NCBI GenBank assembly: GCA_017525915.1
Contig: JAFXSC010000022.1
Coordinates: 248,001 to 312,000, forward strand
Reading direction: 5' to 3'
DNA from: Ruminococcus sp.
Lineage (GTDB): Bacteria; Bacillota; Clostridia; Oscillospirales; Ruminococcaceae
Length of the DNA stretch: 64,000 nucleotides
Shown: one piece after another, positions 1-20,712 of the stretch
Layout: the number at the start of each line of letters is the position of its first letter
How positions within the stretch are numbered: the stretch's first letter is position 1
Program-made: the position numbers and the translations under genes
Notes under the pieces: model-generated
What the model saw: only the letters and a program-made list of their open reading frames with translations
The model's database searches: none
Told to the model about the DNA's origin: nothing

Positions 1-1
1 A

Positions 2-421
2 GAGCTTTTCTGGGACCGGGTATTCGGAAGCGGCTTCAGATACGTCACAATACGGGATATGATGTTCTCACAGGCCGAGGATATCCCGGTAAGGCAGGAG
101 CAGCTCAGAGCCGTCCGGAACAGCGTTTACGCAGAATGGCTGCAAAGCTTTGAAAAGGTCTGGGGAAAAATTGAAACTCAGCGCCAGCTCGTGCATTTCC
201 TGTTGAAATACAAGTACACCCAGAACTGGGACAGAGAGGTCCACGAGAACTATTTCCCGGTCTTCACCGAGACGCTGATAAAAAGGCTTCCCGCTTCGTA
301 CAGACCTGTATACCGGGAAGAGTTCACTCTCCCCTACACTTCGTGGCAGATACGCAGGGACCTCGGCTTCGAACTCACGGACCACACCCACATCAAGCTC
401 ATACTCGAACGGATAGACTGA
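2..421 (+). CDS. C-terminal part of a possible SAM-dependent methyltransferase (5' end outside window)
   Basis: The frame is open from the first bases of the window to a TGA at 419-421, so this is the last ~139 codons of a longer gene. An internal ATG at 59 is unlikely to be the true start because coding continues upstream (reads ELFWDRVFGSGFRYV before it). The tail is rich in aromatic and charged residues and ends with a segment reading LGFELTDHTHIKLILERID. Similar endings occur, from memory, in some class I methyltransferase-fold proteins, but no catalytic motif lies inside the window, so the family assignment is weak. It is followed by a bidirectional hairpin terminator and converges on the transporter gene on the other strand. 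Confidence 0.5.
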   Translation, partial: ELFWDRVFGSGFRYVTIRDMMFSQAEDIPVRQEQLRAVRNSVYAEWLQSFEKVWGKIETQRQLVHFLLKYKYTQNWDREVHENYFPVFTETLIKRLPASYRPVYREEFTLPYTSWQIRRDLGFELTDHTHIKLILERID

Positions 422-456
422 AAAAAGGCAGATATCGCTGTGGATATCTGCCTTTA
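422..456. terminator. Bidirectional hairpin terminator
   Basis: An inverted repeat (AGGCAGATATC / GATATCTGCCT) is flanked by an A-run on the left and T-rich sequence on the right, between two convergent genes. It can end transcription from both sides. Confidence 0.7.
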
Positions 457-460
457 ATTC

Positions 461-1672
461 TTATAGAAGCATTATTATAAATTGTTCTGTGAGTACGACC
501 GAGATCAGAGCAACGGGATAAGTTGCAGCGTAAGCGGAAGCAACGTCCTCTGTGCCGGCTGTTGAGATAAGCGTGCCGAGCGCAGGTGTCGAAGTCATAC
601 CGCCTGTGATAGAGCCGAGGTTGTTGAGCAGGCTAAGCTTCAGAACGTACTTTGCAAACAGGAAGCCTATGACCATGGGGACTATCGTCATTATCATGCC
701 GTAGAGGAAGTATACCCACTCGAAGTATTCAACAAACTTCGCGCCGCCCTTTACTCCGGAACCGATAAGGAACAGCATAAGTCCGAGCTCTCGGAGAACC
801 TTGAGCGTGCTGTCCTTCGGCATGAGACTTATTTTGCCGCAGTGTCCGAAATGTCCGAAGATAAGGCATACAAGCAGGCAGCCGCCTGTTGTTGAGAGTG
901 AGAAGTTGCTGAACTTGAACGAACCGATCACGATACCGATGACTGCTGCAAGTGCAAATGGCATAAGTCCGAAGCTATCCATTTCAATGAGCTTTTCCTG
1001 CTGTCCGGACTTCCTGCCTGACTTGCCAGACACTTTCAGAAGCTCACGCTCCTTTGCCATGTCAGCCTTCATCATCTTGGGTATGAGCTGTACGAAAAGC
1101 ACAACACCGATAACGCCGAAGATATAGGCTATACCCGAGCCGACCGATACGGCGTTCTCATAGTCCGAACCGGCAGCCTCCTTCGCTGCTGAAAGTCCTG
1201 GAGTGCTCGTAAGCGCACCCGAGAGTATGCCAGACATAAGAGCGGTAAACTCGTCGTTTCCGAGGTCTGTGAAGCTTCTGCCGATGAGAATGCAGCCTGC
1301 ACAGGCAATTCCGCCGCTGAATATTACTATGATCGCAAGTGCAACGAACGACTTGAAATTCTTCTTGAAGTTGCTGAAAAAGTTCGGTCCTGCAATAAAT
1401 CCAACCGCAGATACGAACAGCACAAGTCCGAGCGTATCTACCAGCGAGAGCGAATTCTTAACGAAACTCTCAGTGAATTTATCAGAGATATCTTCATAGA
1501 AAATGCCGCCGTAAACGAGTGAAATGAGGAATACGCCTGCCGTTCCGAGAGAAACGCCCTTGATAGTGATCCTTCCGAATATATAGCCGACCGCAGCTAT
1601 CATCATGACAGAAAGTATCATGAACGTTACGTTCTTGAAACTCAGGATATCATCAATTAAAACTAATTCCAT
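461..1672 (-). CDS. AAE-family (AspT/YidE-like) anion transporter, candidate succinate exporter
   Basis: This 403-residue polytopic membrane protein has two homologous halves, each with the AAE signature: GALTSTPGLSAAKEAAGS near residue 155 and GGMTSTPALGTLISTAGTED near residue 355. About ten hydrophobic segments flank a central charged loop (residues ~200-230). The TrkA_C domains found in the loop of AspT and YidE are absent, which makes it a minimal member. AAE proteins exchange or export dicarboxylates and amino acids (AspT aspartate:alanine; SucE1 of Corynebacterium succinate export). It lies 64 bp after frdA on the same strand, at the end of a fumarase/fumarate reductase operon, so succinate export is the favoured inference. 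No clear ribosome-binding site precedes the chosen ATG, so the start is uncertain. Confidence 0.8.
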   Translation of the reverse strand: MELVLIDDILSFKNVTFMILSVMMIAAVGYIFGRITIKGVSLGTAGVFLISLVYGGIFYEDISDKFTESFVKNSLSLVDTLGLVLFVSAVGFIAGPNFFSNFKKNFKSFVALAIIVIFSGGIACAGCILIGRSFTDLGNDEFTALMSGILSGALTSTPGLSAAKEAAGSDYENAVSVGSGIAYIFGVIGVVLFVQLIPKMMKADMAKERELLKVSGKSGRKSGQQEKLIEMDSFGLMPFALAAVIGIVIGSFKFSNFSLSTTGGCLLVCLIFGHFGHCGKISLMPKDSTLKVLRELGLMLFLIGSGVKGGAKFVEYFEWVYFLYGMIMTIVPMVIGFLFAKYVLKLSLLNNLGSITGGMTSTPALGTLISTAGTEDVASAYAATYPVALISVVLTEQFIIMLL

Positions 1673-1705
1673 TATTTATCACACAATCTTTCTTATTTAA
1701 CGTGA

Positions 1706-1731
1706 CAATAGGACGCAAGGGCGTCCTATTG
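1706..1731 (-). terminator. Hairpin between frdA and the AAE transporter
   Basis: An 11-bp stem (CAATAGGACGC / GCGTCCTATTG) with a 4-nt loop lies just after the frdA stop. On the minus strand it is followed by TCACGTTAAA rather than a T-run, so it may be only a partial terminator or an mRNA-end stabiliser that lowers transporter expression relative to frdA. Confidence 0.45.
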
Positions 1732-1735
1732 CGGT

Positions 1736-3340
1736 TTATTTTGACTTTCTTGCATAGTGCGGAAGAAGCATCGGCGAGGGTGTGTCCCCTGCTGCTCCGG
1801 CAGCCTCAAGCTCCTTGTTGAAGCTCTCGATGTGGCTGAGGGTCAGCTTTCCGGGAGCTGCGGTCTCCTTTGCCTTTGCAGCTGCACAGATACCGGCGTT
1901 TCTGCCGAATACGATAACGTCAAGGAGAGAGTTGCCCATGAGACGGTTTCTGCCGTGGATACCTCCGGCTACCTCACCGGCAGCGTAAAGGTTCTCAACG
2001 CCTGTTGAGCAGTCGTCCGAAATGTCAAGTCCGCCGTTCTGATAATGGAGAGTAGGATAAACGAGGATAGGCTCCTTGCGGATATCGATGCCGTACTTGC
2101 CGAACATACGCATCATGGCAGGTATGCGCTTCTCGATAGTACCTTCACCGTGGAGGTACTCTATCATAGGAGTATCCAGCCAGATAGAAGTGCCGAGGTC
2201 AGTCTCTATGCCCTTGCCGCGTGCGGTACACTCGCGAATAATTGAAGCAGCGGTAACGTCACGGGTCTCGAGGGGGTGCATGAATACATCACCGTCGATA
2301 TTGACGAGTTTTGCTCCGAGCGAGCGTACTTTCTCGGTAACGAGAGCGCCGAAGATCTGCTCCGGATAACCGGTTCCTGTCGGGTGATACTGGAGCGTAT
2401 CAGCGTAGAGGAGCTTTGCACCAACTCTGTAACCGAGAATAAGTCCGTCAGCAGTTGCGCCGTAGTGGTTGGAAGTCGGGAAGCCCTGATAGTGAAGCCT
2501 GCCTGCACCGCCTGTTGCGATGATGACAGTCTTTGCTCTTGCAACGAGCAGTTCCTTTGTCTCCATATTCATGAGGACTGCACCGGCAGCCTTACCGTTT
2601 TCATCGAGGATTATCTCGACCGCCGCTGTGAAGTCAATTACGGGGATTCCCCTGTTTAGCACTTCATCGCGGAGAGTTCTCATTATCTCAGCGCCTGAAT
2701 AGTCCTTTGCAGCGTGCATACGCTTGCGTGAGGTGCCGCCACCGTGAGTAGTTACCATAGTGCCGTCCGGCTCCTTGTCGAACTCAACGCCGAGCTTGTT
2801 GAGCCACTGGATAGCCTCGGGAGCCTTTGTGACGAGCTTCTTGACAAGCTCAGGCTTTGCGGCAAAATGTCCGCCGCCGAAGGCATCGAGGAAGTGTATC
2901 GCCGGAGAATCATTGGGCTTGTCGGCAGCCTGTATACCGCCCTCAGCCATCATTGTATTCGCATCACCGATACGGAGCTTTGTGACGATCATTGCCTTTA
3001 CGCCTGCCTCGTCAGCCTCTATCGCTGCGGAAGCACCTGCTCCGCCGCCGCCGATGATAAGCACATCGGTATCGTAATCAGGGGTGCTAAGATCAACGTC
3101 AGATGCGCTGATACGGCTTTTTCCCTGAAGGAGAGCGGCAAGCTGTGTAGGAACCTTGTCGCCCTTGTTCACGCCTGCCGAAAGCACTGTGAACTCGTCC
3201 TGCTTATAGTCAGGGTGGAAGGAAGCGAGAAGCGTATCCTTCTCCTCAGCTGTCATTCTTCTGGGTTCGAGGGCAGCATTTGCAGCTCTCTTTTCAGCAA
3301 CTACTTTTGCAAGCTCATTGAGCCTTTCGATCTTGTACAT
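1736..3340 (-). CDS. frdA: Soluble fumarate reductase flavoprotein subunit (FrdA/TfrA-like)
   Basis: The 534-residue protein belongs to the FrdA/SdhA/NadB family and should reduce fumarate to succinate in the cytoplasm. An FAD dinucleotide fold (LIIGGGGAGASAAIEADEAG, ~residue 94) is followed by the family residues. Substrate and catalytic positions are conserved: His in LQYHPTG, Arg in LVTEKVRS (equivalent of the E. coli TEGCRGEGG arginine), His in LHYQNGG, and Arg in NRLMGNSLLD. The position of the histidine that binds FAD covalently in membrane-bound enzymes is Asn128 (ANTMMAEGG instead of SHTVAAEGG), predicting non-covalent FAD. The ATG is preceded by a purine-rich GGGGGAGAGAG. It follows frdB by 12 nt. 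No membrane anchor gene (frdC/D) is nearby. Aspartate oxidase is an alternative, but its partner nad genes are absent. Confidence 0.87.
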   Translation of the reverse strand: MYKIERLNELAKVVAEKRAANAALEPRRMTAEEKDTLLASFHPDYKQDEFTVLSAGVNKGDKVPTQLAALLQGKSRISASDVDLSTPDYDTDVLIIGGGGAGASAAIEADEAGVKAMIVTKLRIGDANTMMAEGGIQAADKPNDSPAIHFLDAFGGGHFAAKPELVKKLVTKAPEAIQWLNKLGVEFDKEPDGTMVTTHGGGTSRKRMHAAKDYSGAEIMRTLRDEVLNRGIPVIDFTAAVEIILDENGKAAGAVLMNMETKELLVARAKTVIIATGGAGRLHYQGFPTSNHYGATADGLILGYRVGAKLLYADTLQYHPTGTGYPEQIFGALVTEKVRSLGAKLVNIDGDVFMHPLETRDVTAASIIRECTARGKGIETDLGTSIWLDTPMIEYLHGEGTIEKRIPAMMRMFGKYGIDIRKEPILVYPTLHYQNGGLDISDDCSTGVENLYAAGEVAGGIHGRNRLMGNSLLDVIVFGRNAGICAAAKAKETAAPGKLTLSHIESFNKELEAAGAAGDTPSPMLLPHYARKSK

Positions 3341-3352
3341 ACTCTCTCCCCC

Positions 3353-4036
3353 TTACTTCTCGATCTCGCGGTTGTTGTACATAGCCTTGATCTCGTCGAT
3401 ATTATCGACAGCCTTGACCATGAGCTCCTCGATCTTCTCATCGAAGATGCCCTCGTTGACCTCGTTTACACGGTCACTGAGGTGTCCGCACTCAGGTGCG
3501 ATGTACTTGCCGTTGAGACGTCTTGCGAGCATTGCCACCTGCGGATGTGAGATACCGGCAGGGCAGCGTGACGAACATACTCCGCACATTACGCAGTCGA
3601 AGCTCTCCTCAGCGCACTTGTCGTACTCGCCGCGCTGTGCATAGGCGATGTACTGCATAACGTTGAGCTCCTGAGTACAAGCCTTAGTGCAGGCATTGCA
3701 GCCTACGCAGGCGTATATCTCGGGGTAGAGCTGCATCATTATCTGCTGGGTGGGCTTTATCTCCTCGATATTGTATGTTCTCTTTTCAAGCGGAAAGAAC
3801 GGGAGAGTTGCAACGTACATATTCTCCTGTACTTCGGTCTGACAGGCAAGACAGCCGTGGAGCTGTGACTCGCCCTTTATCCTGTATATAGTCGCGCAGG
3901 CACCGCAGAAGCCGTTTCGGCAGCCGCAGCCTCTTACAAGCTCATAGCCGGCGTATTCCATAGCCGTCATTATAGTAAGTCCTGCCGGCACCTGATACTT
4001 CTTGCCGAACAGGTAAACATTTATCATGTTATCCAT
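3353..4036 (-). CDS. frdB: Fumarate reductase iron-sulfur subunit (FrdB-like)
   Basis: The 227-residue protein carries an N-terminal plant-type [2Fe-2S] domain (Cys cluster in RGCGCRNGFCGACATIY with a later HGCLAC) and then two four-Cys motifs (CVGCNACTKACTQ and CVMCGVCSSRCPAG). This is the layout of FrdB/SdhB, which wires electrons to FrdA. It lacks the C-terminal CCG domains fused to TfrB of methanogen thiol:fumarate reductase; those motifs are on the separate HdrB of this operon. The reading frame is open further upstream, but the start at 4036 was chosen because AGGAGG lies 8 nt before this ATG and just after the flxA stop. Confidence 0.87.
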   Translation of the reverse strand: MDNMINVYLFGKKYQVPAGLTIMTAMEYAGYELVRGCGCRNGFCGACATIYRIKGESQLHGCLACQTEVQENMYVATLPFFPLEKRTYNIEEIKPTQQIMMQLYPEIYACVGCNACTKACTQELNVMQYIAYAQRGEYDKCAEESFDCVMCGVCSSRCPAGISHPQVAMLARRLNGKYIAPECGHLSDRVNEVNEGIFDEKIEELMVKAVDNIDEIKAMYNNREIEK

Positions 4037-4049
4037 TTTGCTTTCCTCC

Positions 4050-4877
4050 TTAATACTCATCGGGCAGCTCGCCGAGCTGGTCGAAGCGGAATACGGGACC
4101 GTCCTTGCAGACATACTTGTTGCCGATATTGCAGCGTCCGCACTTGCCGACACCGCACTTCATGCGGAGCTCCATAGTGGTGTATACCTGAGTTTCTGTG
4201 AAACCGAGATCCTTGAGTCCTGCAAGTGTGAACTTTATCATGATAGGAGGTCCGCAGACAAGAACAGTCTTGTTTGTCGAAGGATTAAGCTCCTTGACAT
4301 AGTTCGGAACGAAGCCTACATGGCCGTCCCAGCCCTCCTGTGCATTGTCGATAGTAAGATCTACCTCAACGCCGTCGTCAGCCATCCAATCGTCGATTAT
4401 CTCCTTGTAGTCAACAAGGTCGTCCTTTGAACGCGAGCCGTAGATGACCTGAATCTTGCCGTAATTCTCTCGCTTGTCGCGGACGTAGTTGATGACCGAG
4501 CGCAGCGGTGCAAGACCGATACCGCCGGCGATAAAGAGAAGGTCCTTGCCCTTGAGTTCAGTCTCGACCGGAAAAGCATTGCCATATGGTCCTCTGAGGG
4601 TTATCATCTGTCCGACCTCCATAGCGTGAAGCCACTCGGTCAGGCAGCCGCATTTCTTAATGCTGAATTCCATGAAATCCTTATTCGTAGGCGAGGAGGT
4701 TATCGAGAACATAGCCTCTCCGACTCCCGGTATGGAGAGCATCGCACACTGTCCGGGCATATGCTCGAATACCTTTCCGCCTTCGGGAGCTTCAACGCGG
4801 AATGTCTTGACATCGGGCGTATCTATGCGGATATCCGTAACAACGCCGACGTATGGTATCAATGTATCGTTATTCAT
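4050..4877 (-). CDS. flxA: FAD/NAD(H)-binding oxidoreductase subunit FlxA (PyrK/AsrB-like)
   Basis: The 275-residue protein has the ferredoxin-NADP reductase fold. A flavin-binding segment includes MFSITSSP, the nucleotide-binding loop is FIAGGIGLAPLRS, a second NAD-site motif is LVCGPPIMIK, and a C-terminal four-Cys [2Fe-2S] motif reads CGVGKCGRCNIGNKYVC. This is the NADH-oxidising input of Flx-Hdr complexes. The frame stays open upstream to 4943, but GGAGG lies 7 nt before the second of two tandem ATGs, and 4877 overlaps the flxB stop, which fits the tight operon. It passes electrons to FlxB/FlxC/FlxD and HdrA. Confidence 0.85.
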   Translation of the reverse strand: MNNDTLIPYVGVVTDIRIDTPDVKTFRVEAPEGGKVFEHMPGQCAMLSIPGVGEAMFSITSSPTNKDFMEFSIKKCGCLTEWLHAMEVGQMITLRGPYGNAFPVETELKGKDLLFIAGGIGLAPLRSVINYVRDKRENYGKIQVIYGSRSKDDLVDYKEIIDDWMADDGVEVDLTIDNAQEGWDGHVGFVPNYVKELNPSTNKTVLVCGPPIMIKFTLAGLKDLGFTETQVYTTMELRMKCGVGKCGRCNIGNKYVCKDGPVFRFDQLGELPDEY

Positions 4878-5896
4878 CATTTGTCCTCCAACGCTTTCAT
4901 GACCTTGACTATATTCATTGAGATCGGGCACTTTGACAGGCATCTTCCGCAGCCAACGCAGCCGAATTCGCCGTTGTTGTTTGCCGGGAAGTATACCAGC
5001 TTGTGCATGAATCTCTGGCGGAAGCGTTCAAGCTGGGTAAGTCTCGGGTTGCCGTGAGCCATTTTTGTGAAGTCGGAGTACATACACGAATCCCAGCAGC
5101 GGTAGCGCTTTATGCCGTTTCCGGTGTCGAAATCGCGTATATCATAGCACTGGCAGGTGGGACATACAAAGGTACAGGTACCGCAGCCGAGACAGCTCTC
5201 CGAGAGCTCTCCCCACTTGTCGGAATTGAAGTATTCATTGAGCTTGTCTCCGCCGAAGTTCTTTGTGGAAACATTAGCAAGCGGAAGCTTTTCAAGCACA
5301 GCCTTTGTCTTTGCAACAGCGCTGTCAAGCTCGGCTGCATTGCCTTCCTCAAGAAGTGAAGCGGCGGAATCTATGAAAACCTGCCCCTTTGCGGTAATTG
5401 CCTTGAAGTAGTAATACTCCTCTGCTCTCCACACAGAGCAGTCGCCTTCGGGAGCAGTCGGGTCGATGCCGAATGTCTGACAAAAACAGGTCTCGGCAGG
5501 ACGGTCACAGGCAAGAGTAACTACCGTGCCGTGGTCGCGGCGGTTCTTGTAGAAGGTATCCACCGGGTCACTGAGGTAGACCTTATCGAGTATAGTGAAG
5601 CTCCTTGCATCGCAGGCGCGTACACCGAAAATTACGAAATCATCGCATTCCTCGCGGATATCGTTTATCTCTATCTTCTTTCCTTCGAGCTTGAATTCAA
5701 CAAGGTTCTCGGTCTGCGGGAAGAAGAAATCCTTCGCACTGCGGACTGTATTCAGACGGCTCGTCAGCTTCATTCCGGGAGCATATTCCGTGAATGCAGC
5801 CTCTCCGTCAGCGCGGTCGGCAGGGATATAGAGCTTCTGCTTTGCGGAAACTGCTCCGAACAGAGCGTCAAGCTTATCAGCAGATATTCTCAGCAT
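4877..5896 (-). CDS. flxB: Iron-sulfur subunit FlxB (AsrA-like 4Fe-4S dicluster protein)
   Basis: The 339-residue protein resembles anaerobic sulfite reductase subunit A / hydrogenase beta-type proteins. An N-terminal alpha/beta region carries FGVRACDARSFTILDKV, a Cys pair sits in CFCQTFG, and the C-terminal dicluster ferredoxin reads CLGCGTCTFVCPTCQC and CVGCGRCLSKCPISMN. These clusters would relay electrons between FlxA and FlxD/HdrA. Its ATG overlaps the flxC stop (TAATG), indicating translational coupling. The FlxB/FlxC lettering follows the Flx operons of sulfate reducers; the two paralogous iron-sulfur subunits could be named the other way round. Confidence 0.78.
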   Translation of the reverse strand: MLRISADKLDALFGAVSAKQKLYIPADRADGEAAFTEYAPGMKLTSRLNTVRSAKDFFFPQTENLVEFKLEGKKIEINDIREECDDFVIFGVRACDARSFTILDKVYLSDPVDTFYKNRRDHGTVVTLACDRPAETCFCQTFGIDPTAPEGDCSVWRAEEYYYFKAITAKGQVFIDSAASLLEEGNAAELDSAVAKTKAVLEKLPLANVSTKNFGGDKLNEYFNSDKWGELSESCLGCGTCTFVCPTCQCYDIRDFDTGNGIKRYRCWDSCMYSDFTKMAHGNPRLTQLERFRQRFMHKLVYFPANNNGEFGCVGCGRCLSKCPISMNIVKVMKALEDK

Positions 5897-6867
5897 TACT
5901 CAACACCCCTTTCGTGTACTATGCTCGCTTCGCAGTCGTCAGCGGTATAATTATTGAGCGGTGCGCGTGATTCAGTGTCGGCACCTGCCTGATATTCGCC
6001 GTAGAGGGCATTGATGTCCTTGATGAACTTGCGGTTGAGGAGATGAAGCGGGATATGCTGGGGGCATACTCTCGAACACTCGCCGCAGTCGGTGCATCTT
6101 CCTGCAACGTGGAACGCGCGGATTATATGGAACATATTCTCCTCAAAGCTGTCAGCAGCAGCCTTGTTCGACACGCCGGACTTCGGGTTGTCGAATACGC
6201 AGTTCTCGCAGGTGCAGGCAGGACAGACGTTCCTGCACGCATTACATCTTATGCACTTGGAAAGCTCGCTCCTCCAGAAGTCGTAGCGCTCCTGTGAGGT
6301 CATATTTTCCAGTTTCTCAACCATGTCAAAGCGGTTGGATTCGAGGATATCGCCGTCATCGCCCATCAGCTCGTCATAGGTAACGTGCTTCTTGCTCTTG
6401 CATGAAGCGCACTTGTCAAGCACAGCCTCATAGAAGGGCATAGTCTCCTCGCCGTAGAGGGTATCTATTTTCAGGGTATAGTTCTCGTTTTTCACTCCGA
6501 GGATACCGGTGATGCCCTTGCCCTTTATCTTCTCGATATCGAGCTTCGGACCGCCGGGTACACCGATGACGTAGATATTGCCGCGGTCAACACGGTGCTC
6601 CTTAGTGAGCTGATTGAGGCTGTATGTGTCACAGGGCTTCAGGAACGCAAGTACCCTGCCCTCTTTGCGGCTCTCCTTGACGAGATACTTGGAAACGTTT
6701 GCAGCGGTGAAATCATCAAATACGAAGTCCCTGTCAAGCTCCTCCGCAGTCTCAAAAACAGCCGGAGTTATGTCGTAGGCAAACTCTCCCCTTTTCCAGC
6801 CGATGACACGCTTGACTGTGCCGTCTGCAAGGAGCTGCTTAGCCCTTTCGATCATTGCTTTCTGCAT
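5896..6867 (-). CDS. flxC: Iron-sulfur subunit FlxC (FrhB/AsrA-like)
   Basis: The 323-residue protein is a distant paralogue of the next gene. An N-terminal domain carries FLKPCDTYSLNQLTKEH, the F420-hydrogenase-beta-like region has CASCKSKKHVTYDEL, and a 4Fe-4S dicluster reads CIRCNACRNVCPACTCENC and CTDCGECSRVCPQHIP. It starts inside the 3' end of flxD (16-nt overlap) with GGAGG 7 nt upstream. The likely role is internal electron transfer in the NADH-oxidising half of the bifurcating complex. Confidence 0.78.
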   Translation of the reverse strand: MQKAMIERAKQLLADGTVKRVIGWKRGEFAYDITPAVFETAEELDRDFVFDDFTAANVSKYLVKESRKEGRVLAFLKPCDTYSLNQLTKEHRVDRGNIYVIGVPGGPKLDIEKIKGKGITGILGVKNENYTLKIDTLYGEETMPFYEAVLDKCASCKSKKHVTYDELMGDDGDILESNRFDMVEKLENMTSQERYDFWRSELSKCIRCNACRNVCPACTCENCVFDNPKSGVSNKAAADSFEENMFHIIRAFHVAGRCTDCGECSRVCPQHIPLHLLNRKFIKDINALYGEYQAGADTESRAPLNNYTADDCEASIVHERGVE

Positions 6868-7298
6868 CTCAGGTCCTCCAATCTCCGGTTAGGTCCGAGC
6901 TTTCTTACAGCCTCGGTGAATTCGTTCATGGTAGCGGCAAACTTTGCGCCCTCAGCGGCAGATACCCACTCAACTCTCGTCCTGTCGCGTTCGATGCCGA
7001 GGAAGTCGAGCATACTGAACAGGAGGGTCATTCTCCTTCTTGTGAAGTAGTTTCCGGAGGTGTAGTGGCAGTCACCGGGGTGGCAGCCGCAGAGTATAAC
7101 TCCGTCAGCGCCTCTCTGGAATGCGCGGAGTATGAACATCGGGTTTACTCTGCACGAGCAGGGCACCCTGATTATCTTGACATTTGTCGGGTAATTCAGT
7201 CTGTTTGTGCCGGAGAGATCGGCACCTGCATACGAACACCAGTTGCAGCAGAATGCGACGATCAGCGGCTGGAAATCCTTGTTATCATTTACTTGCAT
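6852..7298 (-). CDS. flxD: HdrA-associated [2Fe-2S] subunit FlxD (MvhD-like)
   Basis: The 148-residue protein has the MvhD/FlpD signature: FCCNWCSYAGADLSG at the N-terminus, VPCSCRVNPMFILRAF in the middle and VILCGCHPGDCHY. Members bind a [2Fe-2S] cluster and connect the electron-input module (hydrogenase, formate dehydrogenase or Flx) to HdrA. Its start overlaps the hdrA stop by 10 nt, and a GGAGG lies upstream. No hydrogenase large subunit is nearby, so NADH via FlxA is the likely donor. Confidence 0.88.
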   Translation of the reverse strand: MQVNDNKDFQPLIVAFCCNWCSYAGADLSGTNRLNYPTNVKIIRVPCSCRVNPMFILRAFQRGADGVILCGCHPGDCHYTSGNYFTRRRMTLLFSMLDFLGIERDRTRVEWVSAAEGAKFAATMNEFTEAVRKLGPNRRLEDLRCRKQ

Positions 7299-9280
7299 AT
7301 CGCGTCAACCTCCGCCATAATCTGGCTGTTAGAGAAGCCGTTGAGATCCATTGCACCGGACGGGCAGGCTACCGTACAAGCGCCGCAGCCCTGACAAACA
7401 GCAGGATTGACGCTTGCCACGCGGCGTACCTTAGTGGTGCGGTCGGGCATTCTGAATTCCTTGTCGATGTATGTGATAGCTCCGTAGGGGCAGACCTTCT
7501 CGCAGGACGAGCAGCCGTTGCACATGAGCTCGTCTGAATGAGCAACGCACGGATTGCAAGTGATGCTGTTCTTGCAGAGAAGTCCGATAGCCTTTGCAGC
7601 GGCAGCACTTGCCTGAGCAACGGTCTCCGGGATATCCTTCGGTCCCTGACACGCTCCGGAGAGGAAGATTCCGGCGGTAGCGCTCTCAACAGGACGGAGC
7701 TTCGGATGAGCTTCGGTGAAAAAGTCGTTGGTGTCCATCTGTGTGGTAAGCATTGTCGCAAGAGGACGGGCAGTCTTGTCCGGCTCGATAGCGGCAGCAA
7801 GCACGACCATATCGGCGTTGATGTGGAGCTGCTCGTTTGCAAGGAGATCGGAAGCCTGTACGTCTATCTTTCCGTCCGACTTGGGAGTTACCTTGCCGAC
7901 CATTCCCTTGATGTAGTGAACATTGTACTGCTCAACTGCACGGCGGTAGAATTCGTCGAAGTTCTTTCCGGGAGTACGGACGTCGATATAGAACACATAT
8001 ACCTCGGTATCCGGATATTTCTCGCGTATGAGCATTGCGTGCTTTGCTGTGTACATACAGCATATCTTGGAGCAGTAGGGCTTGCCCTTACTGTCGTCGC
8101 ATCTTGAACCCACGCACTGAACGAATACGATAGTGTGGGGATGTGTCTTGTCGGAAGGACGGAGGAGAGTTCCGCCGTTCGGTCCGGCAGCGTTCATAAG
8201 TCTCTCAAGTTCAAGAGAGGTAACAACGTCCGGGCACTGATTGTATGCGAACTCATCGTACTTGTCAAGCTTGATAGGATTGAAGCCTGTCGCAACAACG
8301 ATAGCGCCGTACTTCTCCTCAATAAATCTGTCCTGCTGCTTGTAGTCGATAGCGCCGACCGAGCAGACTTTCGAGCACACACCGCACTTGCCGTTTTTGA
8401 GCATCATGCAGTAATTCGGGTCGATAGTTGCGACCTTCGGTACAGCCTGCGCGAACGGGATATAAATTGCAGTCCTGTTGTCGAGGCCCATGTTGAACTC
8501 GTTCGGTACCTTTTTCATCGGACATTTCTCTGTACAGAGTCCGCAGCCGGTACACTTTGTCTCGTCAACGAAACGTGCCTTCTTCTTTATCTTAACTTGG
8601 AAGTTTCCGACAAAGCCCTTGACTTCTGCAACTTCACTGAATGAATGTATCGTGATATGCTCGTTCTGCGAAGCCTCGACCATTTTAGGAGTGAGGATAC
8701 AGGCGGCACAGTCGAGAGTCGGGAAGGTCTTGTCTATCTGTGCCATTTTACCGCCGATAGTCGGATTCTTCTCAACGATGTCAACGTCAAAGCCTGCCTC
8801 TGCGATATCGAGGGCCGTCTGGATACCGGCGATACCTCCGCCGATAACGAGCGCACGCTTTACAACAGGGCTCTCACCGGCTGTGAGCGGCGCGTTGAGA
8901 TGTACCTTTGCAACAGCAGCCCTGCCGAGGATTATCGCCTTTTCGGTAGCAGTTGCGATGTCCTTGTGAATCCATGAGCACTGCTCACGGATATTCGCTA
9001 TCTCAACGAGGTAGGGGTTCAGTCCGGCAGCAGCGGCAGCCTTTCTGAAAGTATTCTCGTGCATACGCGGCGAGCATGAACAGATAACAACGCCTGTGAG
9101 ATTATGCTCCTTTATAGCGTTCTTCACGAGGTTCTGACCGGATTCGGAGCACATATACTGATAGTCCTGAGAAATAACTACGCCCGGCTCGTGTCCGAGA
9201 GTCTCAGCGACTGTTTTAACGTCGACAGTTGCGGCGATATTTGTACCGCAGTGACAGACGAATACACCTATTCTCTGCAT
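7289..9280 (-). CDS. hdrA: Heterodisulfide reductase subunit A-like bifurcating flavoprotein
   Basis: The 663-residue HdrA has an N-terminal Cys motif (GVFVCHCGTNI), an FAD-binding fold at ~residue 145 (VIGGGIAGIQTALDIAEAG) with the HdrA hallmark TLDCAACILTPKMVEA, an inserted ferredoxin region (CTGCGLCTEKCP and CGVCSKVCSVGAI), and a C-terminal two-cluster ferredoxin (CNGCSSCEKVCP, CQGCGACTVACP). In known Hdr complexes its FAD bifurcates electrons between a low-potential ferredoxin and the HdrB site. Length is normal for the family. AAGGAGG lies upstream of the ATG. It is encoded between hdrC and flxD, the order of Flx-Hdr operons in other anaerobes. Confidence 0.9.
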   Translation of the reverse strand: MQRIGVFVCHCGTNIAATVDVKTVAETLGHEPGVVISQDYQYMCSESGQNLVKNAIKEHNLTGVVICSCSPRMHENTFRKAAAAAGLNPYLVEIANIREQCSWIHKDIATATEKAIILGRAAVAKVHLNAPLTAGESPVVKRALVIGGGIAGIQTALDIAEAGFDVDIVEKNPTIGGKMAQIDKTFPTLDCAACILTPKMVEASQNEHITIHSFSEVAEVKGFVGNFQVKIKKKARFVDETKCTGCGLCTEKCPMKKVPNEFNMGLDNRTAIYIPFAQAVPKVATIDPNYCMMLKNGKCGVCSKVCSVGAIDYKQQDRFIEEKYGAIVVATGFNPIKLDKYDEFAYNQCPDVVTSLELERLMNAAGPNGGTLLRPSDKTHPHTIVFVQCVGSRCDDSKGKPYCSKICCMYTAKHAMLIREKYPDTEVYVFYIDVRTPGKNFDEFYRRAVEQYNVHYIKGMVGKVTPKSDGKIDVQASDLLANEQLHINADMVVLAAAIEPDKTARPLATMLTTQMDTNDFFTEAHPKLRPVESATAGIFLSGACQGPKDIPETVAQASAAAAKAIGLLCKNSITCNPCVAHSDELMCNGCSSCEKVCPYGAITYIDKEFRMPDRTTKVRRVASVNPAVCQGCGACTVACPSGAMDLNGFSNSQIMAEVDAICK

Positions 9281-9292
9281 TGATGCTCCTCC

Positions 9293-9676
9293 TTATTTAG
9301 CGTACTTCCTGAGTGCCGTGACGATAGCCTGCTGCGGCAGGTCTTCATCGAGCATATCAGGTATCATATCAGGACTGAGACGGTTACCGCCCTGCTGACG
9401 TACAGCGGCAAGGCGTACAGCCTCGACTACCTTTGCCGGTTCAACGCCCCTCGGGCATCTGTCCACGCAGGCAAAGCAGGTCAGGCATCTATACAGCGAT
9501 TCGGACTTCATAAGTGTCTCTATATCGCCTTTCTCGACCATGTAAACGAACTGATGAGGGTGGTATTCCATTTCATCGTAGGAGGGGCAGGTCGCAGAAC
9601 ATTTTCCGCAGCGCATACATTTGAGAACATTTGCGCCGCTTGAACGAAGGACCTGTTCTTTCAGATTCTTATTCAT
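9293..9676 (-). CDS. hdrC: Heterodisulfide reductase subunit C-like ferredoxin
   Basis: The 127-residue protein has two 4Fe-4S motifs (CMRCGKCSATCPSYDE and CLTCFACVDRCPRGVEP), typical of HdrC, which carries electrons from HdrA to HdrB. The start lies within the last codons of hdrB (8-nt overlap) with AAAGGAGG just upstream, so translation is probably coupled. Twelve nucleotides separate it from hdrA. Confidence 0.88.
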   Translation of the reverse strand: MNKNLKEQVLRSSGANVLKCMRCGKCSATCPSYDEMEYHPHQFVYMVEKGDIETLMKSESLYRCLTCFACVDRCPRGVEPAKVVEAVRLAAVRQQGGNRLSPDMIPDMLDEDLPQQAIVTALRKYAK

Positions 9677-10466
9677 TGCTTGCCTCCTTTAAGCCAAGAG
9701 CTTCAGCGAGGAGCTCAGTGAAGTAGTACACGGGAAGCTCCGAGCCGGAATTCTTTCTGAGATTATACAGGCACAGAGGACAGGCTGTAACTATCATTTC
9801 AGCGCCCATATCGGCAGCAGAATTCATGACAGCTGCGCTGCGCTTCTGAGCCTGAGCCTTGTCCTCAAGTGTTATATATCCGCCGCAGCACTCATTGCGC
9901 TGTGCATAGATTACGGGAGTTGCACCTATCGCCTTGATGAAATCCTCCATAATGGCAGGATTTTCCGGGTCATCCATAGCGAGAGCCTTTGCCGGACGGA
10001 GCAGAAGACATCCATAGTAAGCAGCAATTTTCCTTCCGGTAAGAGGATTTGTAACCTTCTCTTTAAGGTTGTCAAAACCAACAACATCGCGGAGCATTTC
10101 CAGATAGTGATAAACGGTAGTCTCACCGGTATAAGCCTCGGGAAGCTGAAGGTAGTTGTTCACCTTCGCCGCCATATTTTCATCGTGGGAAATATCATAA
10201 TTTGTCTGCTTTATAACGTTGTGGCAGGCGGAACAGACAGTTATGAGCGGTCTGCCGAGCTCCTTCGCAGCGTTGAGAGCTCTCACGGCAGAGAGCTTTG
10301 TAGCTATCTCGTCCTTTGCAGTCGTATAAGCTCCGCCGCAGCACTGCCAGTCGTCGGGCTCGGCAAGGACGATACCGAGAGCCTCTGCAGAGATTCTCGC
10401 ATAGGTGTCAAGGTCCTTAGCCTTTGTCCTGAGCGTACAGCCGGGATAATATGTAAAAGTTTCCAT
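9669..10466 (-). CDS. hdrB: Heterodisulfide reductase subunit B-like, two complete CCG domains
   Basis: The 265-residue protein has two CCG domains. The first is YYPGC...WQCCGGAY...TVCSACHN and the second YYGCLLLR...NECCGGY...TACPLCLYN. In archaeal HdrB these cysteines hold two non-cubane [4Fe-4S] clusters that reduce a disulfide. All CX(n)CCX(n)CXXC positions look intact, so the site should be functional. The organism has no reason to make CoM-S-S-CoB; the true acceptor may be another disulfide or the FrdB clusters encoded downstream. A GGATAAG lies before the ATG. Confidence 0.88.
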   Translation of the reverse strand: METFTYYPGCTLRTKAKDLDTYARISAEALGIVLAEPDDWQCCGGAYTTAKDEIATKLSAVRALNAAKELGRPLITVCSACHNVIKQTNYDISHDENMAAKVNNYLQLPEAYTGETTVYHYLEMLRDVVGFDNLKEKVTNPLTGRKIAAYYGCLLLRPAKALAMDDPENPAIMEDFIKAIGATPVIYAQRNECCGGYITLEDKAQAQKRSAAVMNSAADMGAEMIVTACPLCLYNLRKNSGSELPVYYFTELLAEALGLKEASNE

Positions 10467-10493
10467 AGCACTTATCCTTTCGTATGGATTTGT

Positions 10494-11870
10494 TCAGCAC
10501 ATCTGCTCGGGGTGGAAGACTTCATCGAACTTCTCGGCTGTGAGGAAGCCGAGCTCAACGCAGGCTTCTTTCAGGGAGATGTTGTCCTTGAACGCCTTCT
10601 TTGCGGTCTTGGCTGCATTCTCATAGCCGATGTAGGGATTGAGCGCAGTCACAAGCATGAGGGAGTTGTGGAGGTTGTGGTGCATCTTCTCTGCATTAGC
10701 TTTTATTCCGACAGCGCAGTTCTTGTTGAAGCTGAGAATAGACTCAGCGAGAAGTCTTGCGGACTGGAGGAAATTATAGGCGCAGACCGGCATGAATACG
10801 TTCAGCTCAAAGTTGCCCTGTGAAGCCGCCATGCCGACAGCAACATCGTTGCCCATTACCTGAACAGCGACCATAGTCACCTGTTCGCACTGGGTCGGAT
10901 TTACCTTGCCGGGCATGATAGACGAGCCAGGCTCGTTCTCGGGAATGAATATCTCGCCGAGACCGTCTCTCGGACCGGAAGCGAGCCATCTTACGTCGTT
11001 TGCTATCTTCATCATGTCGGCGGCAAGTGCTTTGAGTGCGCCGTGTGCGAAAACGATCTCGTCCTTGGAAGTGAGAGAGTGAAACTTGTTGGGGGCAGTC
11101 ACGAACTTCTTTCCTGTAAGTTCACTGATAGCCTCCGCAGACTTCTCAGCAAAGCCGGCAGGAGCATTAAGACCTGTTCCGACAGCTGTACCGCCAAGTG
11201 CAAGCTCTTTGAGTTCCTCACACGAAGAAAGGAGCATCTTTCTGTCCTTTTCGAGAGAAGCTCTCCAGCCGCTTATCTCCTGTGAGAACTTGATGGGAGT
11301 TGCGTCCTGTAAGTGAGTCCTTCCGCTCTTTACGATGCCTTCGTTTTCAGCTTCAAGACGCTTGAAGGTCTCAACGAGCGTATCTATTGCAGGAATGACC
11401 TTGTCCTCTACCGCAAGAACAGCAGCGATGTGCATAGCTGTCGGGAAGGTGTCATTAGAGGACTGGCTCATATTGATATCGTCGTTCGGGTGGAGAAGCT
11501 TCTCGCCTGCGATCTCGTTGCCGCGGTTGGCGATGACCTCGTTGGCGTTCATATTGGACTGAGTACCGCTGCCGGTCTGCCATACAACGAGCGGGAAATG
11601 CTCATTGAGAGAGCCGCTGATGACTTCGTCGCAAGCCTGAGAAATCGCGGCAAGCTTTCTGTCGGTCATTTTCTCGGGTTTAAGGGAATTATTTGCAATT
11701 GCAGCAGCCTTTTTGAGTATACCGAAGGCGTGGGTGATCTCTCTCGGCATGGTCTCGATACCAACGCCGATGAGGAAATTCTCGTGGCTGCGCTCTGTCT
11801 GGGCAGCCCAGTACTTGTCGGCAGGCACTCTGACCTCGCCCATAGAATCATGTTCAATACGGTAATCCAT
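10494..11870 (-). CDS. fumC: Class II fumarate hydratase
   Basis: The ~458-residue iron-independent fumarase interconverts malate and fumarate. Visible signatures are GSGTQSNMNANEVIANRG, SQSSNDTFPTAMH, GRTHLQDATPI and the superfamily signature GSSIMPGKVNPTQCE. The lyase catalytic loop is intact. A GTG lies nine bases further upstream, but GGAG sits 8 nt before the ATG at 11870, so this start was chosen. It is the first gene of the hdr-flx-frd operon and would supply its fumarate. A promoter and a Rex-operator candidate lie upstream. Confidence 0.95.
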   Translation of the reverse strand: MDYRIEHDSMGEVRVPADKYWAAQTERSHENFLIGVGIETMPREITHAFGILKKAAAIANNSLKPEKMTDRKLAAISQACDEVISGSLNEHFPLVVWQTGSGTQSNMNANEVIANRGNEIAGEKLLHPNDDINMSQSSNDTFPTAMHIAAVLAVEDKVIPAIDTLVETFKRLEAENEGIVKSGRTHLQDATPIKFSQEISGWRASLEKDRKMLLSSCEELKELALGGTAVGTGLNAPAGFAEKSAEAISELTGKKFVTAPNKFHSLTSKDEIVFAHGALKALAADMMKIANDVRWLASGPRDGLGEIFIPENEPGSSIMPGKVNPTQCEQVTMVAVQVMGNDVAVGMAASQGNFELNVFMPVCAYNFLQSARLLAESILSFNKNCAVGIKANAEKMHHNLHNSLMLVTALNPYIGYENAAKTAKKAFKDNISLKEACVELGFLTAEKFDEVFHPEQMC

Positions 11871-11922
11871 AGTATCCACTCCAGTAATTATTCGGGCATT
11901 CAGCCCACTTTCTTATAATATA

Positions 11923-11951
11923 AGTATATCAGCAAGTGCCCGGAAATTCAA
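11923..11951 (-). promoter_or_regulatory. Sigma-A type promoter of the fumC-hdr-flx-frd operon
   Basis: On the minus strand TTGAAT is separated by 17 bp from TATACT, giving a start site near 11916. A second, weaker pair (TTGTTA ... TGTATA) lies further upstream at about 11999-11972 and is overlapped by the Rex-like site. Confidence 0.5.
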
Positions 11952-11981
11952 ATGCACATTGAGAATAGCGCTATACAATTC

Positions 11982-11999
11982 TTGATATATTCTTAACAA
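11982..11999 (-). promoter_or_regulatory. Candidate Rex operator before the fumC operon
   Basis: The minus-strand 18-mer TTGTTAAGAATATATCAA matches the clostridial Rex consensus TTGTTAAN4TTAACAA at 7/7 positions in one half and 5/7 in the other. It lies ~110 bp upstream of fumC and overlaps a possible upstream -35 element. The rex gene itself is the next gene upstream. Confidence 0.6.
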
Positions 12000-12344
12000 T
12001 ACCTGTTCACAGCCGGTCCATATACAAGGCATGAAGTGAACATATCCGAAATTATATTCAAGAACTTGCAGCAAAATATCTTTTGGCACAGCAGAGATTT
12101 TTGTTGTATTTGCTTAACACAGGACAGCAAACCAGCTGATTGCGGCATCGTGCGTACCGCCGGAAGTACAGCAGGTCAAACGCCGTCACGCTTTCCCCGG
12201 CGCACTGAAACATACAGTTTCAGAATACAATTATATATTGTCAGGAATATCATTGTAAAATCTTCGTTATTTTTTTCACATATGATATTCTGAATATCGC
12301 TGCGGATACGGGTCCCGCAGCGACTTTGCCAGTAGAGTCCGGCA
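12000..12344. other. Intergenic region between rex and fumC with stem-loops and a palindrome
   Basis: No convincing gene was seen. The region holds a 7-bp hairpin (CTGAAAC / GTTTCAG, 12205-12223), a perfect odd palindrome GATATTCTGAATATC (12284-12298) with another GAATATC at 12244, and a GC-rich 9-bp stem (TCGCTGCGG / CCGCAGCGA, 12297-12323) just after the rex stop. The last may close the icd-rex transcript although no T-run follows it on the minus strand. Confidence 0.4.
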
Positions 12345-12983
12345 TTATTTGTCATAGAGTGCATTCAGCCCGTAGGACAGCGTTGTAAGGCTGTCCCCGA
12401 GATGCACGTTCTCAACTATTATGTCCTTATGCTCCATGCGGAGATCATAATGTGTGAAGTTCCAGAAAGCCTTTATGCCATATCCGATAAGCCTCTCGGC
12501 TGATTCGGCTGCCGCACTCATAGGTACGCACAGTATCGCCGCAACAGGCTTGTTTTCGGCGCAGAATTCAGCAAGGCCGTTCACGTCCATGACCGTAAGT
12601 CCGGCAATGTTCTTGCCTATTATTTCGGGATTTACGTCAAACGCACCGATGAGTGTGAAACCCTTGCTTACAAAGTCAAGATGAGTAGCTATCGCCTTTC
12701 CGAGATTTCCGGCACCAATGAGTATCATGGGTGTTTTCCTGTCAAGTCCGAGGATCTTTCCGATCTCGTCTCTGAGATCGCTGACATTGTAGCCGTACCC
12801 CTGCTGTCCGAACTCGCCGAAGCAGTTGAAATCCTGCCTTATCTGCGAGGCTGTAAGCCCCATTTTTTCGGAAAGCTCACGCGATGATATCCTGACATAG
12901 CCGTTAGTTTCAAGCTCGCCGAGAAATCTGTAATAACGCGGCAGACGCCTGATAACTGAATTTGAGATGGAGTTTTTCGCCAT
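12345..12983 (-). CDS. rex: Redox-sensing transcriptional repressor Rex
   Basis: The 212-residue protein has an N-terminal winged helix (RLPRYYRFLGEL, ISSRELSEKMGLTASQIRQD, FGQQGYGYNV) and a Rossmann NAD(H)-binding domain (ILIGAGNLGKAIA, then GAFDVNPEIIG), ending with a swapped helix. Rex represses fermentation and respiration genes until NADH/NAD rises. It follows icd by 24 nt and is probably co-transcribed with it. Its ATG is preceded by GAGGGAC. Candidate Rex sites lie upstream of both fumC and aconitase, suggesting local control of the split TCA genes. Confidence 0.96.
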   Translation of the reverse strand: MAKNSISNSVIRRLPRYYRFLGELETNGYVRISSRELSEKMGLTASQIRQDFNCFGEFGQQGYGYNVSDLRDEIGKILGLDRKTPMILIGAGNLGKAIATHLDFVSKGFTLIGAFDVNPEIIGKNIAGLTVMDVNGLAEFCAENKPVAAILCVPMSAAAESAERLIGYGIKAFWNFTHYDLRMEHKDIIVENVHLGDSLTTLSYGLNALYDK

Positions 12984-13007
12984 TTCGGTCCCTCTTTCCC
13001 TGAGAGA

Positions 13008-14219
13008 TCACATCAGCCTGTCAAGTCTGAGCTTTATCTCGTCAAGGAAGGTCTTGGAATCGACCTTCTTTTTGTTTTCAAGCTTTGAGATAAGATAAAG
13101 ATCGCCGGTCATTACACCGTCCTCGATAGTCTGTATTGTAGCTTTTTCGAGCTTGTCAGCGAAATCGCAGAGCTCGGGAGTGCCGTCAAGCTCTCCCCTC
13201 TTTCTGAGGGCGCCGCTCCATGCAAAGATAGTAGCAACGGAGTTTGTAGATGTCTCCTCGCCCTTGAGATACTTGTAGTAATGGCGCTGAACAGTACCGT
13301 GTGCAGCCTCGTACTCGTATATTCCATCGGGTGAAACGAGAACAGAAGTCATCATGGCAAGGCTGCCGTAAGCAGTCGATACCATATCGGACATAACGTC
13401 ACCGTCATAGTTCTTGCAAGCCCAGATATAGCCGCCGTTTGAACGGATAACACGCGCAACAGCGTCATCAATGAGAGTGTAGAAATACTCAATGCCTGCT
13501 TCTTCGTACTTCTCCTTGTACTCCTTCTCAAAAATCTCTGCAAAGATATCCTTGAAGCGATGATCGTACTTCTTGGAGATAGTGTCCTTGGAAGCGAACC
13601 ATACGTCCTGCTTGAGGTCAAGACCGTAGTTGAGGCAGGCTCTTGCGAAACCTGCAATAGAATCGTCAAGGTTGTGAAGTCCCTGAATGATACCGTCACA
13701 CTTCTTGAAGTCATGGATAAGCTCGCGTGTCTCATTGCCGTTCTCATCGGTAACGACGAGCTCAGCCTTGCAGCCCTTGTTCACGCGCATCTCGGTGTTC
13801 TTGTAAATGTCACCGTAAGCGTGACGCGCGATAGTTATAGGCTTTGTCCATGTGGGGATATAAGGTTCGATGCCCTTAACGATGATAGGTGTGCGGAAAA
13901 CTGTACCGTCAAGAGCAGCACGGATAGTACCGTTCGGAGACTTCCACATCTGTGTGAGGTTATACTCGGGCATTCTTGCGGCATTCGGTGTAATTGTAGC
14001 GCACTTTACGGCAACGCCGTACTTCTTTGTAGCCTCAGCGGAATCAAGCGTCACCTGATCCTTTGTCTCCTCGCGGTGAGCAAGTCCGAGGTCATAGTAT
14101 TCTGTATTGAGCTCCACATAGGGCTCGAGGAGAGTTTCCTTAATCCACTTCCAGAGGATTCGGGTCATCTCGTCTCCGTCCATTTCAACGAGAGGAGTTT
14201 TCATAGTTATCTTTGCCAT
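13008..14219 (-). CDS. icd: NADP-dependent isocitrate dehydrogenase
   Basis: The 403-residue enzyme is of the eukaryote-like homodimeric IDH type. It converts isocitrate to 2-oxoglutarate with CO2 release. Recognisable blocks are [12 protein letters not shown] at the N-terminus, [18 protein letters not shown] (phosphate/substrate loop), and [15 protein letters not shown] near the coenzyme site. AAAGGAGG precedes the ATG. With aconitase nearby it forms the oxidative half-cycle that supplies glutamate; the following gene is rex. Confidence 0.95.
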
Positions 14220-14248
14220 TGGGGTTTCCTCCTTTTATTATTTACAGC

Positions 14249-14431: not shown

Positions 14432-14449
14432 TCTACCACCACTTTCCAG

Positions 14450-15148: not shown

Positions 15149-15181
15149 AGCACCGCTCCTTGATACCGTTCCGTAAGGATT

Positions 15182-17119: not shown

Positions 17120-17156
17120 AAAGAGATCATTCCTTTCAACAATAGAATACATTTAT

Positions 17157-20706: not shown

Positions 20707-20712
20707 CACAAA

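Follow-up and report, generated by a model that had tools for sequence, protein, structure and literature searches.

A ten-gene operon of Ruminococcus predicted to encode a soluble, quinone-free fumarate reductase system

The stretch of DNA analysed here (the window; 64,000 nt of contig JAFXSC010000022.1 from Ruminococcus sp., assembly GCA_017525915.1) contains ten uninterrupted open reading frames (ORFs) on the minus strand, in the order fumC-hdrB-hdrC-hdrA-flxD(mvhD)-flxC-flxB-flxA-frdB-frdA and spanning positions 1736-11870. This locus raises the question of whether a fumarase, an Flx-Hdr complex and a two-gene fumarate reductase work as one system, and by which route electrons would reach fumarate. 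Judged from sequence, the operon encodes, with a probability of roughly 70%, a soluble fumarate reductase system independent of quinones, in which HdrA would bifurcate electrons to ferredoxin and to FrdAB. The original prediction had described a ten-gene operon on one strand in this order, and the ORF calls, the domain content and the refined coordinates bore it out; the largest gap that it gave, 27 nt between fumC and hdrB, proved exact. The following spacings, in the direction of frdA, were −8, 12, −10, −16, −1, −4, 13, and 12 nt.

Gene order and HdrB-FrdB pairing

A scan of named contigs with FrdA retained the best 80 of 535 relatives. The closest were Ruminococcus flavefaciens and Ruminococcus metagenome-assembled genomes (MAGs), with the cultured FD-1 (locus L050) among them. 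The frdB gene preceded frdA in all 80 loci, although it was truncated by a contig end in a few. All ten genes were found in order in 62 loci; 16 others were truncated by contig ends, and two (L093 and L110) lacked only fumC. A survey of this gene order had been set as a check on the original prediction, and the order was retained in the named loci. Since it is conserved among them, and given the co-occurrence in Clostridia described below, a chance gene neighbourhood was ruled out. The same operon, with an FrdA of 79% identity, also occurred in a MAG (L115) that carries the label uncultured Treponema sp.; either the operon moved between phyla or the contig was binned wrongly.

FrdA, or at least a fragment of it, was present in 34 of the 36 genomes of the genus sample, including the source genome, and the two genomes without it were 82% and 86% complete. 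These counts were judged by eye, and matches of ~35% identity were treated as NadB-like and left out. FrdA was also found in 5 of 24 genomes of other families in the same taxonomic order. Of the 53 other Clostridia genomes positive for FrdB, 20 supplied one further region each, and hdr-flx adjoined frdBA in all of these; 19 had the same gene order as far as the contig extended, and one (L155) was rearranged. Even in the rearranged loci (L155, L210, L213, L215, L232, and L220), hdr-flx remained beside frdBA. The gene trees of FrdA and HdrA (quick method, SH-aLRT only) formed matching groups, which may reflect species descent and were not used as proof; the FrdA tree contained long-branch rows, and some of its labels required more than one change.

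Among 391 Clostridia genomes (thresholds of E<=1e-30 for FrdB and E<=1e-40 for HdrB), FrdB was found in 54 and HdrB in 54. Both were present in 52, and two genomes each carried only one or the other; these four discordant genomes were 62-88% complete. The two genes were located on one contig in 43 of the 52 genomes, and 42 of these 43 pairs were 6.3-6.7 kb apart; in the other nine they lay on different contigs. The co-occurrence had a Fisher p of 9e-60, with kinship ignored. The HdrB model was derived from 11 Frd-linked HdrBs. Its threshold is not narrow, because the model also found HdrBs that were not near frdBA in other Bacillota, where the best match in each genome lay between 1e-68 and 1e-109. 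In Clostridia, HdrB was hardly ever present without an FrdAB-type reductase, and the two form a practically inseparable pair.

Character of FrdAB and HdrABC

FrdA carries an N-terminal extension of ~88 residues. Pfam gave no Succ_DH_flav_C match in it, and its alignment to TfrA stopped at residue 410 of 546. Asn128 aligned with the E. coli FrdA histidine that we take to be FAD-linking, and it was Asn in 133 of 133 FrdAs; this count excluded frames below 450 residues (two mis-called) and two NadB-like rows. His319, Glu336, Arg339, Arg360, His432, and Arg466 were invariant in the same set, and Thr335 was retained in 132. Non-covalent FAD occurs in soluble one-way fumarate reductases, so FrdAB is expected from its sequence to oxidise little succinate. 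FrdA reached no curated cut-off among the 25 NCBIfam models listed; the best was TfrA (343.9 bits, cut-off 718), followed by the SdhA/FrdA models (278 bits) and NadB (271.4 bits, cut-off 452.75). A separate NadB-like gene was present (L002), and its best models were those of L-aspartate oxidase, just below the cut-off.

FrdB is a protein of 227 residues with a [2Fe-2S]-type domain and two 4Fe-4S motifs. Its best PDB match was the RnfC dicluster region (30 bits), it scored 26.9 bits against the canonical SdhB/FrdB model TIGR00384 (cut-off 88), and no CCG domain was found in it by Pfam. Twelve ligand-type cysteines were invariant in 113 of 113 FrdBs, and Cys37 varied in two; 22 of the 135 frames were dropped from this count as mis-called or cut (<=200 residues). 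The absence of Succ_DH_flav_C, the non-canonical FrdB and the lack of Sdh_cyt matches in the genus genomes ruled out an Sdh-type membrane complex II, and FrdAB is, by its sequence features, of non-complex-II character.

HdrA matched methanogen HdrA (PDB 5odc) with 702 bits, and its cluster cysteines, including those of the C-terminal ferredoxin domain, aligned by eye. The operon hdrA was the sole full HdrA copy found in the source genome. HdrB was homologous to methanogen HdrB (PDB 5odc, 8rvu), and its ten CCG cysteines were retained in 102 of 102 proteins (the last one in 101). Its best model was SdhE of 8-methylmenaquinol:fumarate reductase (152.2 bits), ahead of HdrB itself (138.1 bits), both below the cut-off. 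Along its length, the TfrB model NF004898 matched first FrdB, then HdrC, and then HdrB, in weak matches far below its cut-off, and it matched FlxC weakly too. Because SdhE is the best model of HdrB and the TfrB model spans FrdB, HdrC, and HdrB, there is a hint that CCG proteins such as HdrB are natural partners of FrdAB-type enzymes.

The gene at the head of the operon varied among lineages; it was fumC, aspA, the gene of a class I fumarase/tartrate dehydratase subunit, or a dehydrogenase gene. In Ilyobacter polytropus (Fusobacteriota, L269), aspartate ammonia-lyase headed the operon instead of fumarase, and aspA was likewise first in L210 and L213; all three passed the subfamily cut-off and just missed the equivalog cut-off. 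The upstream gene in L155 encoded a class I fumarase/tartrate dehydratase beta subunit, with tartrate dehydratase as its best model. Six Clostridia without fumC had a lactate/malate-type dehydrogenase at the head, and TIGR01771 (L-lactate dehydrogenase) was above the cut-off in all six. A loop Arg, which we take as a mark of malate dehydrogenase, was found in those of L036, L166, L167, and L170 and not in those of L158 and L159; malate dehydrogenase is the favoured assignment. No fumarate-making gene was recognised, by reading, upstream of the operons without fumC in L093, L110, L156, L157, L162, L164, and L165, and L171 was cut there. Where the head enzymes are swapped, one fumarate-making enzyme replaces another, which is good evidence for fumarate as the predicted substrate of FrdAB.

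Proposed electron path and alternatives

In the proposed mechanism, FlxA would accept hydride from NADH, and FlxBCD would relay the electrons to HdrA, whose flavin would bifurcate them. One electron would pass to ferredoxin and the other through HdrC, HdrB, and FrdB to FrdA, which would reduce the fumarate made by FumC to succinate. Per fumarate, two NADH would be oxidised, two one-electron ferredoxins reduced and one succinate formed. Rnf would then convert reduced ferredoxin to NADH and an ion gradient, and the net effect would resemble NADH:fumarate respiration, free of quinone. HdrB would act mainly as an electron conduit and not as a disulfide reductase; SdhE plays such a role for E-type SdhAB, as does the CCG domain of TfrB. 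Complex formation, the HdrB-to-FrdB transfer, bifurcation, the use of NADH rather than NADPH, and the direction are inferred from the sequence.

The cell context was consistent with this path. Sdh_cyt was found in none of the 36 genus genomes, the source genome included (7 of 14 controls positive; E. coli-type FrdC/D was not searched). UbiA was absent from the source genome and matched in 7 of the 36 (5 over the cut-off), with 14 of 14 controls positive. Among the Rnf genes rnfC alone was sought, and it was present in 27 of the 36, including the source genome, which also carried one [FeFe] hydrogenase above the cut-off. With no UbiA or Sdh_cyt match in this genome, the quinone route looks absent; with rnfC and the hydrogenase present, sinks for reduced ferredoxin exist. 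DsrC was found in none of the 36 genus genomes (1 of 14 controls positive), and a DsrC-linked Hdr was ruled out by this result. The reaction of 2 NADH and fumarate with 2 ferredoxins (Fd) had a Delta G0' of ~-48 kJ per fumarate when potentials of -320, -420, and +30 mV were assumed. With Fd at -500 mV and NADH at -280 mV it was still -17 kJ per fumarate. The reverse reaction is uphill, consistent with the loss of the FAD-histidine.

Several observations weigh against the bifurcating reading. In the remaining 9 of the 36 genus genomes rnfC was not found. No FrdB-HdrB fusion was found, and the longest open frame around the listed FrdB matches had 320 residues. Given its intact CCG cysteines, HdrB may reduce disulfides. 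Two NadB-like outgroup proteins carried the same FrdA residues, Asn128 included, with Thr335 changed to Ser in both; these residues would prove the chemistry of the superfamily, not fumarate alone. Some FrdAB loci adjoined cytochrome b, FMN-bind or NuoF-like proteins, and in 17 of the 29 Bacillota regions taken outside the class Clostridia there were no hdr genes near FrdAB, some of these regions lying near a contig end or on a short stretch. HdrB was not found at E<=1e-15 in 5 of these 17 genomes (G812, G514, G511, G732, and G573); the search included three further genomes as positive controls.

These regions came from 29 of the 38 other FrdB-positive genomes in a phylum sample, in which FrdB was present in 39 of 398 genomes including the source genome. 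The arrangement frdBA-hdrBCA-mvhD-flxCBA was found in four of them and hdrCBA-mvhD-flxCBA-frdBA in one; four had only hdrBC adjacent, and three had Hdr genes together with hdrA genes that we take to be Qmo-like near frdBA. Other neighbours of FrdAB in Bacillota were FMN-bind/4Fe-4S, multihaem cytochrome, and cytochrome b561-type proteins. Twelve of the 17 hdr-unlinked genomes carried HdrB elsewhere at the same threshold. Eight such regions were inspected; seven were hdr-mvhD-flx clusters (one cut before flxA), and the eighth (L266) had no flx genes. Thus, FrdAB often has an Flx-Hdr partner in the cell, yet it can exist without HdrB. The five Bacillota genomes without an HdrB match imply that FrdAB can also use a different donor.

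Relatives of FrdAB stood beside 4Fe-4S/cytochrome b561-type or FMN-bind membrane proteins in L223:6653-9981, L225:6427-9742, L211:7281-11659, and L222:6676-11894 (neighbours assigned by Pfam for L211, L222, and L225, and by reading for L223); these are possibly membrane-linked versions of the same FrdAB core. Downstream of a distant frdB (30%) and frdA (48%) on the megaplasmid of Cupriavidus metallidurans CH34 (L270:5001-10047) lay genes of a NuoF-like subunit and DctA; this proteobacterial set may be a direct NADH:fumarate reductase. In L204-L206, L208, L209, L221, and L230, frdBA was near class I fumarase-like subunits and, in most, a malic-enzyme-like protein. The malic-enzyme-like protein was assigned by a model match in L205 and the remaining neighbours of this group by reading; six of the seven genomes had HdrB elsewhere.

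FrdAB might be a stand-alone enzyme whose RnfC-like FrdB accepts electrons from reduced ferredoxin or from a different soluble donor, with Flx-Hdr only balancing NADH and ferredoxin. The five Bacillota genomes in which HdrB was not found, the RnfC dicluster as the best PDB match of FrdB, and the NuoF-like gene after the distant Cupriavidus relatives speak for this; the 52 Clostridia genomes with both proteins against 2 + 2 with one, and the adjacency of hdr-flx to frdBA even in rearranged loci, speak against it. We regard it as unlikely, though ahead of the other rivals. Somewhat less probable is an indirect thiol:fumarate reductase, in which Flx-Hdr would reduce a thiol/disulfide carrier and the thiol would drive fumarate reduction. 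It would explain the retained CCG cysteines of HdrB, and the methanogen homologues of HdrB do reduce heterodisulfide, but DsrC was unmatched in the genus, FrdB lacks a CCG domain with which to read a thiol, and the best model of HdrB is the FrdAB-associated SdhE.

Flx-Hdr could also relay electrons to FrdAB as a plain NADH:fumarate reductase, with no reduction of ferredoxin. The fumarate potential alone would be sufficient drive with the potentials assumed above, and sequence cannot reveal ferredoxin coupling; however, HdrA is homologous to bifurcating HdrA over its full length and has kept the cluster ligands and the C-terminal ferredoxin domain, and rnfC is present, so that we rate this version slightly lower again. 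That FrdA acts on another substrate, such as aspartate or another enoate, appears very improbable. FrdA does lie below all 25 listed cut-offs with nearly equal NadB and SdhA/FrdA scores (271 and 278 bits), but the separate NadB-like gene, and the fumarase or aspartase at the head of the operon in several lineages, argue for fumarate.

The bifurcating cytosolic fumarate reductase of the original prediction was partly supported, by the gene order, the HdrB-FrdB pairing, the cluster cysteines, rnfC, and the downhill energetics, while bifurcation itself and the HdrB-FrdB contact are what we infer. Its idea that no membrane quinone takes part agreed with the unmatched Sdh anchor and with the lack of a UbiA match in the source genome; the missing DsrC match also spoke for the prediction. 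The Bacillota FrdAB for which HdrB was not found show that Hdr is not strictly required by this reductase. A wider proposal, to which we give a little less than an even chance, is that FrdAB represents a family, spread over at least three phyla and not covered by curated models, of fumarate reductases that need no quinone and probably work in one direction; they would have lost the FAD-histidine and have an RnfC-like FrdB. The family would be a plug-in core with an exchanged electron-input module. Clostridia and Ilyobacter (Fusobacteriota) would use bifurcating Flx-Hdr, and other Bacillota HdrBC by itself or Hdr together with Qmo-like proteins; in others the module would be cytochrome b or FMN-bind membrane proteins, and beside the distant Cupriavidus relatives it would be a NuoF-like NADH subunit. 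In Clostridia, practically the only job of HdrABC would be to serve this reductase, with HdrB as a conduit and not a disulfide reductase.

Flanking genes and relation to known systems

The features of the locus are listed in Table 1. The mechanical ORFs of flxA, frdB, and fumC were longer than the refined genes; their starts were placed later, chosen from relatives and ribosome-site-like sequence. Pfam and NCBIfam domain content agreed with the gene names, and FumC was the only product to reach a curated cut-off among the NCBIfam rows listed for the ten genes.

Table 1. Features of the operon and its surroundings in the window
Feature	Description	Position	Strand	Evidence
fumC	class II fumarase (makes fumarate)	10494-11870	-	NCBIfam TIGR00979, 703.7 bits (cut-off 664.75); ATG start, GGAG upstream
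hdrB	two CCG domains (non-cubane cluster type)	9669-10466	-	PF02754, two stretches
hdrC	4Fe-4S dicluster protein	9293-9676	-	Pfam Fer4_8/Fer4_17; NCBIfam HdrC models below cut-off
hdrA	flavoprotein, proposed bifurcation site	7289-9280	-	HdrA2 model, 802 bits (cut-off 1100); model additionally spans a fused MvhD part
flxD (mvhD)		6852-7298	-	PF02662, 186.5 bits
flxC	4Fe-4S protein	5896-6867	-	Pfam Fer4 domains; position conserved
flxB	4Fe-4S protein, sulfhydrogenase-beta/AsrA-like	4877-5896	-	PF17179; NF040829, 170 bits, below cut-off
flxA	FAD/NAD(P)-binding and DHODB-type Fe-S domain, proposed NADH entry	4050-4880	-	PF00175, PF00970, PF10418
frdB	2Fe-2S and RnfC-like 4Fe-4S dicluster protein	3353-4036	-	Pfam Fer2_4, Fer4_9
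frdA	short flavoprotein, fumarate reductase/SdhA/NadB superfamily	1736-3340	-	PF00890, 242.9 bits
permease	AspT/YidE-type, candidate succinate or dicarboxylate exporter	461-1672	-	PF06826 (Asp-Al_Ex), 206 bits
rex	NADH-sensing repressor gene	12345-12983	-	NF003990, 282 bits, above cut-off 233
Rex-operator-like palindrome	weak candidate site upstream of fumC	11982-11999	+	one mismatch to a Rex-operator consensus

The permease gene starts 63 nt past the end of frdA, and of the 71 named loci with room among the best 80 of 535, 56 had a permease gene no more than 600 nt beyond frdA. A strong hairpin (1706-1731) between the two genes, considered as a terminator, had no T-run on the operon strand, so the permease may be co-transcribed, and an Rfam scan of window positions 1-18000 gave no match at the gathering threshold. 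Upstream of the operon, on the same strand, were rex, icd, and aconitase genes, the latter two identified by reading alone, which suggests a split tricarboxylic acid cycle with the operon as its reductive arm. Equally many window matches to the Rex-like site occurred in 19 of 100 shuffles. It was present (<=3/14 mismatches) in 24 of 71 fumC upstream regions, all of them Ruminococcus or near-identical loci, and Rex control of the operon is offered as a weak candidate. Elsewhere in the window, positions 17338-30021 encode large proteins that look secreted and carry dockerin-like repeats, as well as a CotH-like protein (names assigned by reading), as expected for a cellulosomal Ruminococcus. In an ORF at 36203-37717 on the minus strand (504 residues), a long repeat rich in Gly, Pro, and Met (PPAGMPAGGPP units) sits within a protein that otherwise looks ordinary. 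The source genome comprises 3.09 Mb in 67 contigs.

If the proposed system operates, succinate formation in R. flavefaciens and many gut Clostridia would save energy as reduced ferredoxin. The Bcd-Etf complex of butyrate formation is an analogous ferredoxin-based saving. This would alter how redox equivalents and ATP are budgeted in the rumen and gut for the flow of succinate, propionate, and hydrogen, and fumarate respiration would gain a quinone-free route.

Among known systems, FlxABCD-HdrABC of Desulfovibrio vulgaris is linked to thiol carriers and, reportedly, to ethanol metabolism (Ramos et al. 2015); we know of no frdAB partner for it. By name it has the same seven-subunit set, all seven of which are contiguous in the Ruminococcus operon, and the HdrA cluster ligands of bifurcating HdrA are present there (5odc alignment, by eye). 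The Ruminococcus genomes differ from the D. vulgaris type in having no DsrC match. Complex II (SdhABCD/FrdABCD) and E-type SdhABE have the flavoprotein fold and active-site residues in common with FrdA, and HdrB resembles SdhE. However, the FAD-linking histidine, Succ_DH_flav_C, a canonical SdhB/FrdB, and an Sdh_cyt anchor were all missing. Thiol:fumarate reductase TfrAB provided the best model for FrdA (TfrA, 343.9/718 bits), and TfrB spanned FrdB, HdrC, and HdrB weakly; TfrB has a fused CCG domain, whereas the Ruminococcus FrdB has none and HdrB is separate. To our knowledge, CoM and CoB are not expected in this bacterium. The methanogen complex HdrABC-MvhAGD carries out flavin-based bifurcation, with H2 or formate as the donor and heterodisulfide as the acceptor. 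Its HdrA and HdrB (PDB 5odc, 8rvu) are homologous to the operon proteins; unlike it, the Ruminococcus operon has an NAD(P)-binding module and FrdAB.

A search of a PMC collection (subscription literature was not searched) found neither biochemical proof of bifurcation nor an earlier description of the operon from Ruminococcus. In R. flavefaciens, succinate output is reported to be lower with a methanogen (PMC7174568), consistent with succinate as a sink for NADH. The closest counterpart is the "succinate operon" of Pseudoclostridium thermosuccinogenes, which, according to PMC7282089, comprises fumarase, Flx-Hdr (with a locus-tag range that fits seven genes), a two-gene fumarate reductase, and a suggested succinate transporter gene. 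That source describes an increase of ~4-fold at low CO2, which did not reach significance for all subunits. With reference to a 2019 preprint by Koendjbiharie and van Kranenburg, it also takes up the proposal that fumarate reduction is coupled to the reduction of ferredoxin. Compared by published description and not by protein sequence, the two operons have the same blocks, block order, strand layout, and trailing permease, in different organisms. Because the cultured FD-1 carries the operon, this proposal, in print since ~2019, is directly testable there. We conclude that the Ruminococcus operon is a further member of the proposed P. thermosuccinogenes-type bifurcating succinate operons, an idea already in print; new are how widely it is spread, how rarely HdrB and FrdB were seen apart in Clostridia, the exchange of head genes and of donor modules, and an FrdAB unlike complex II.

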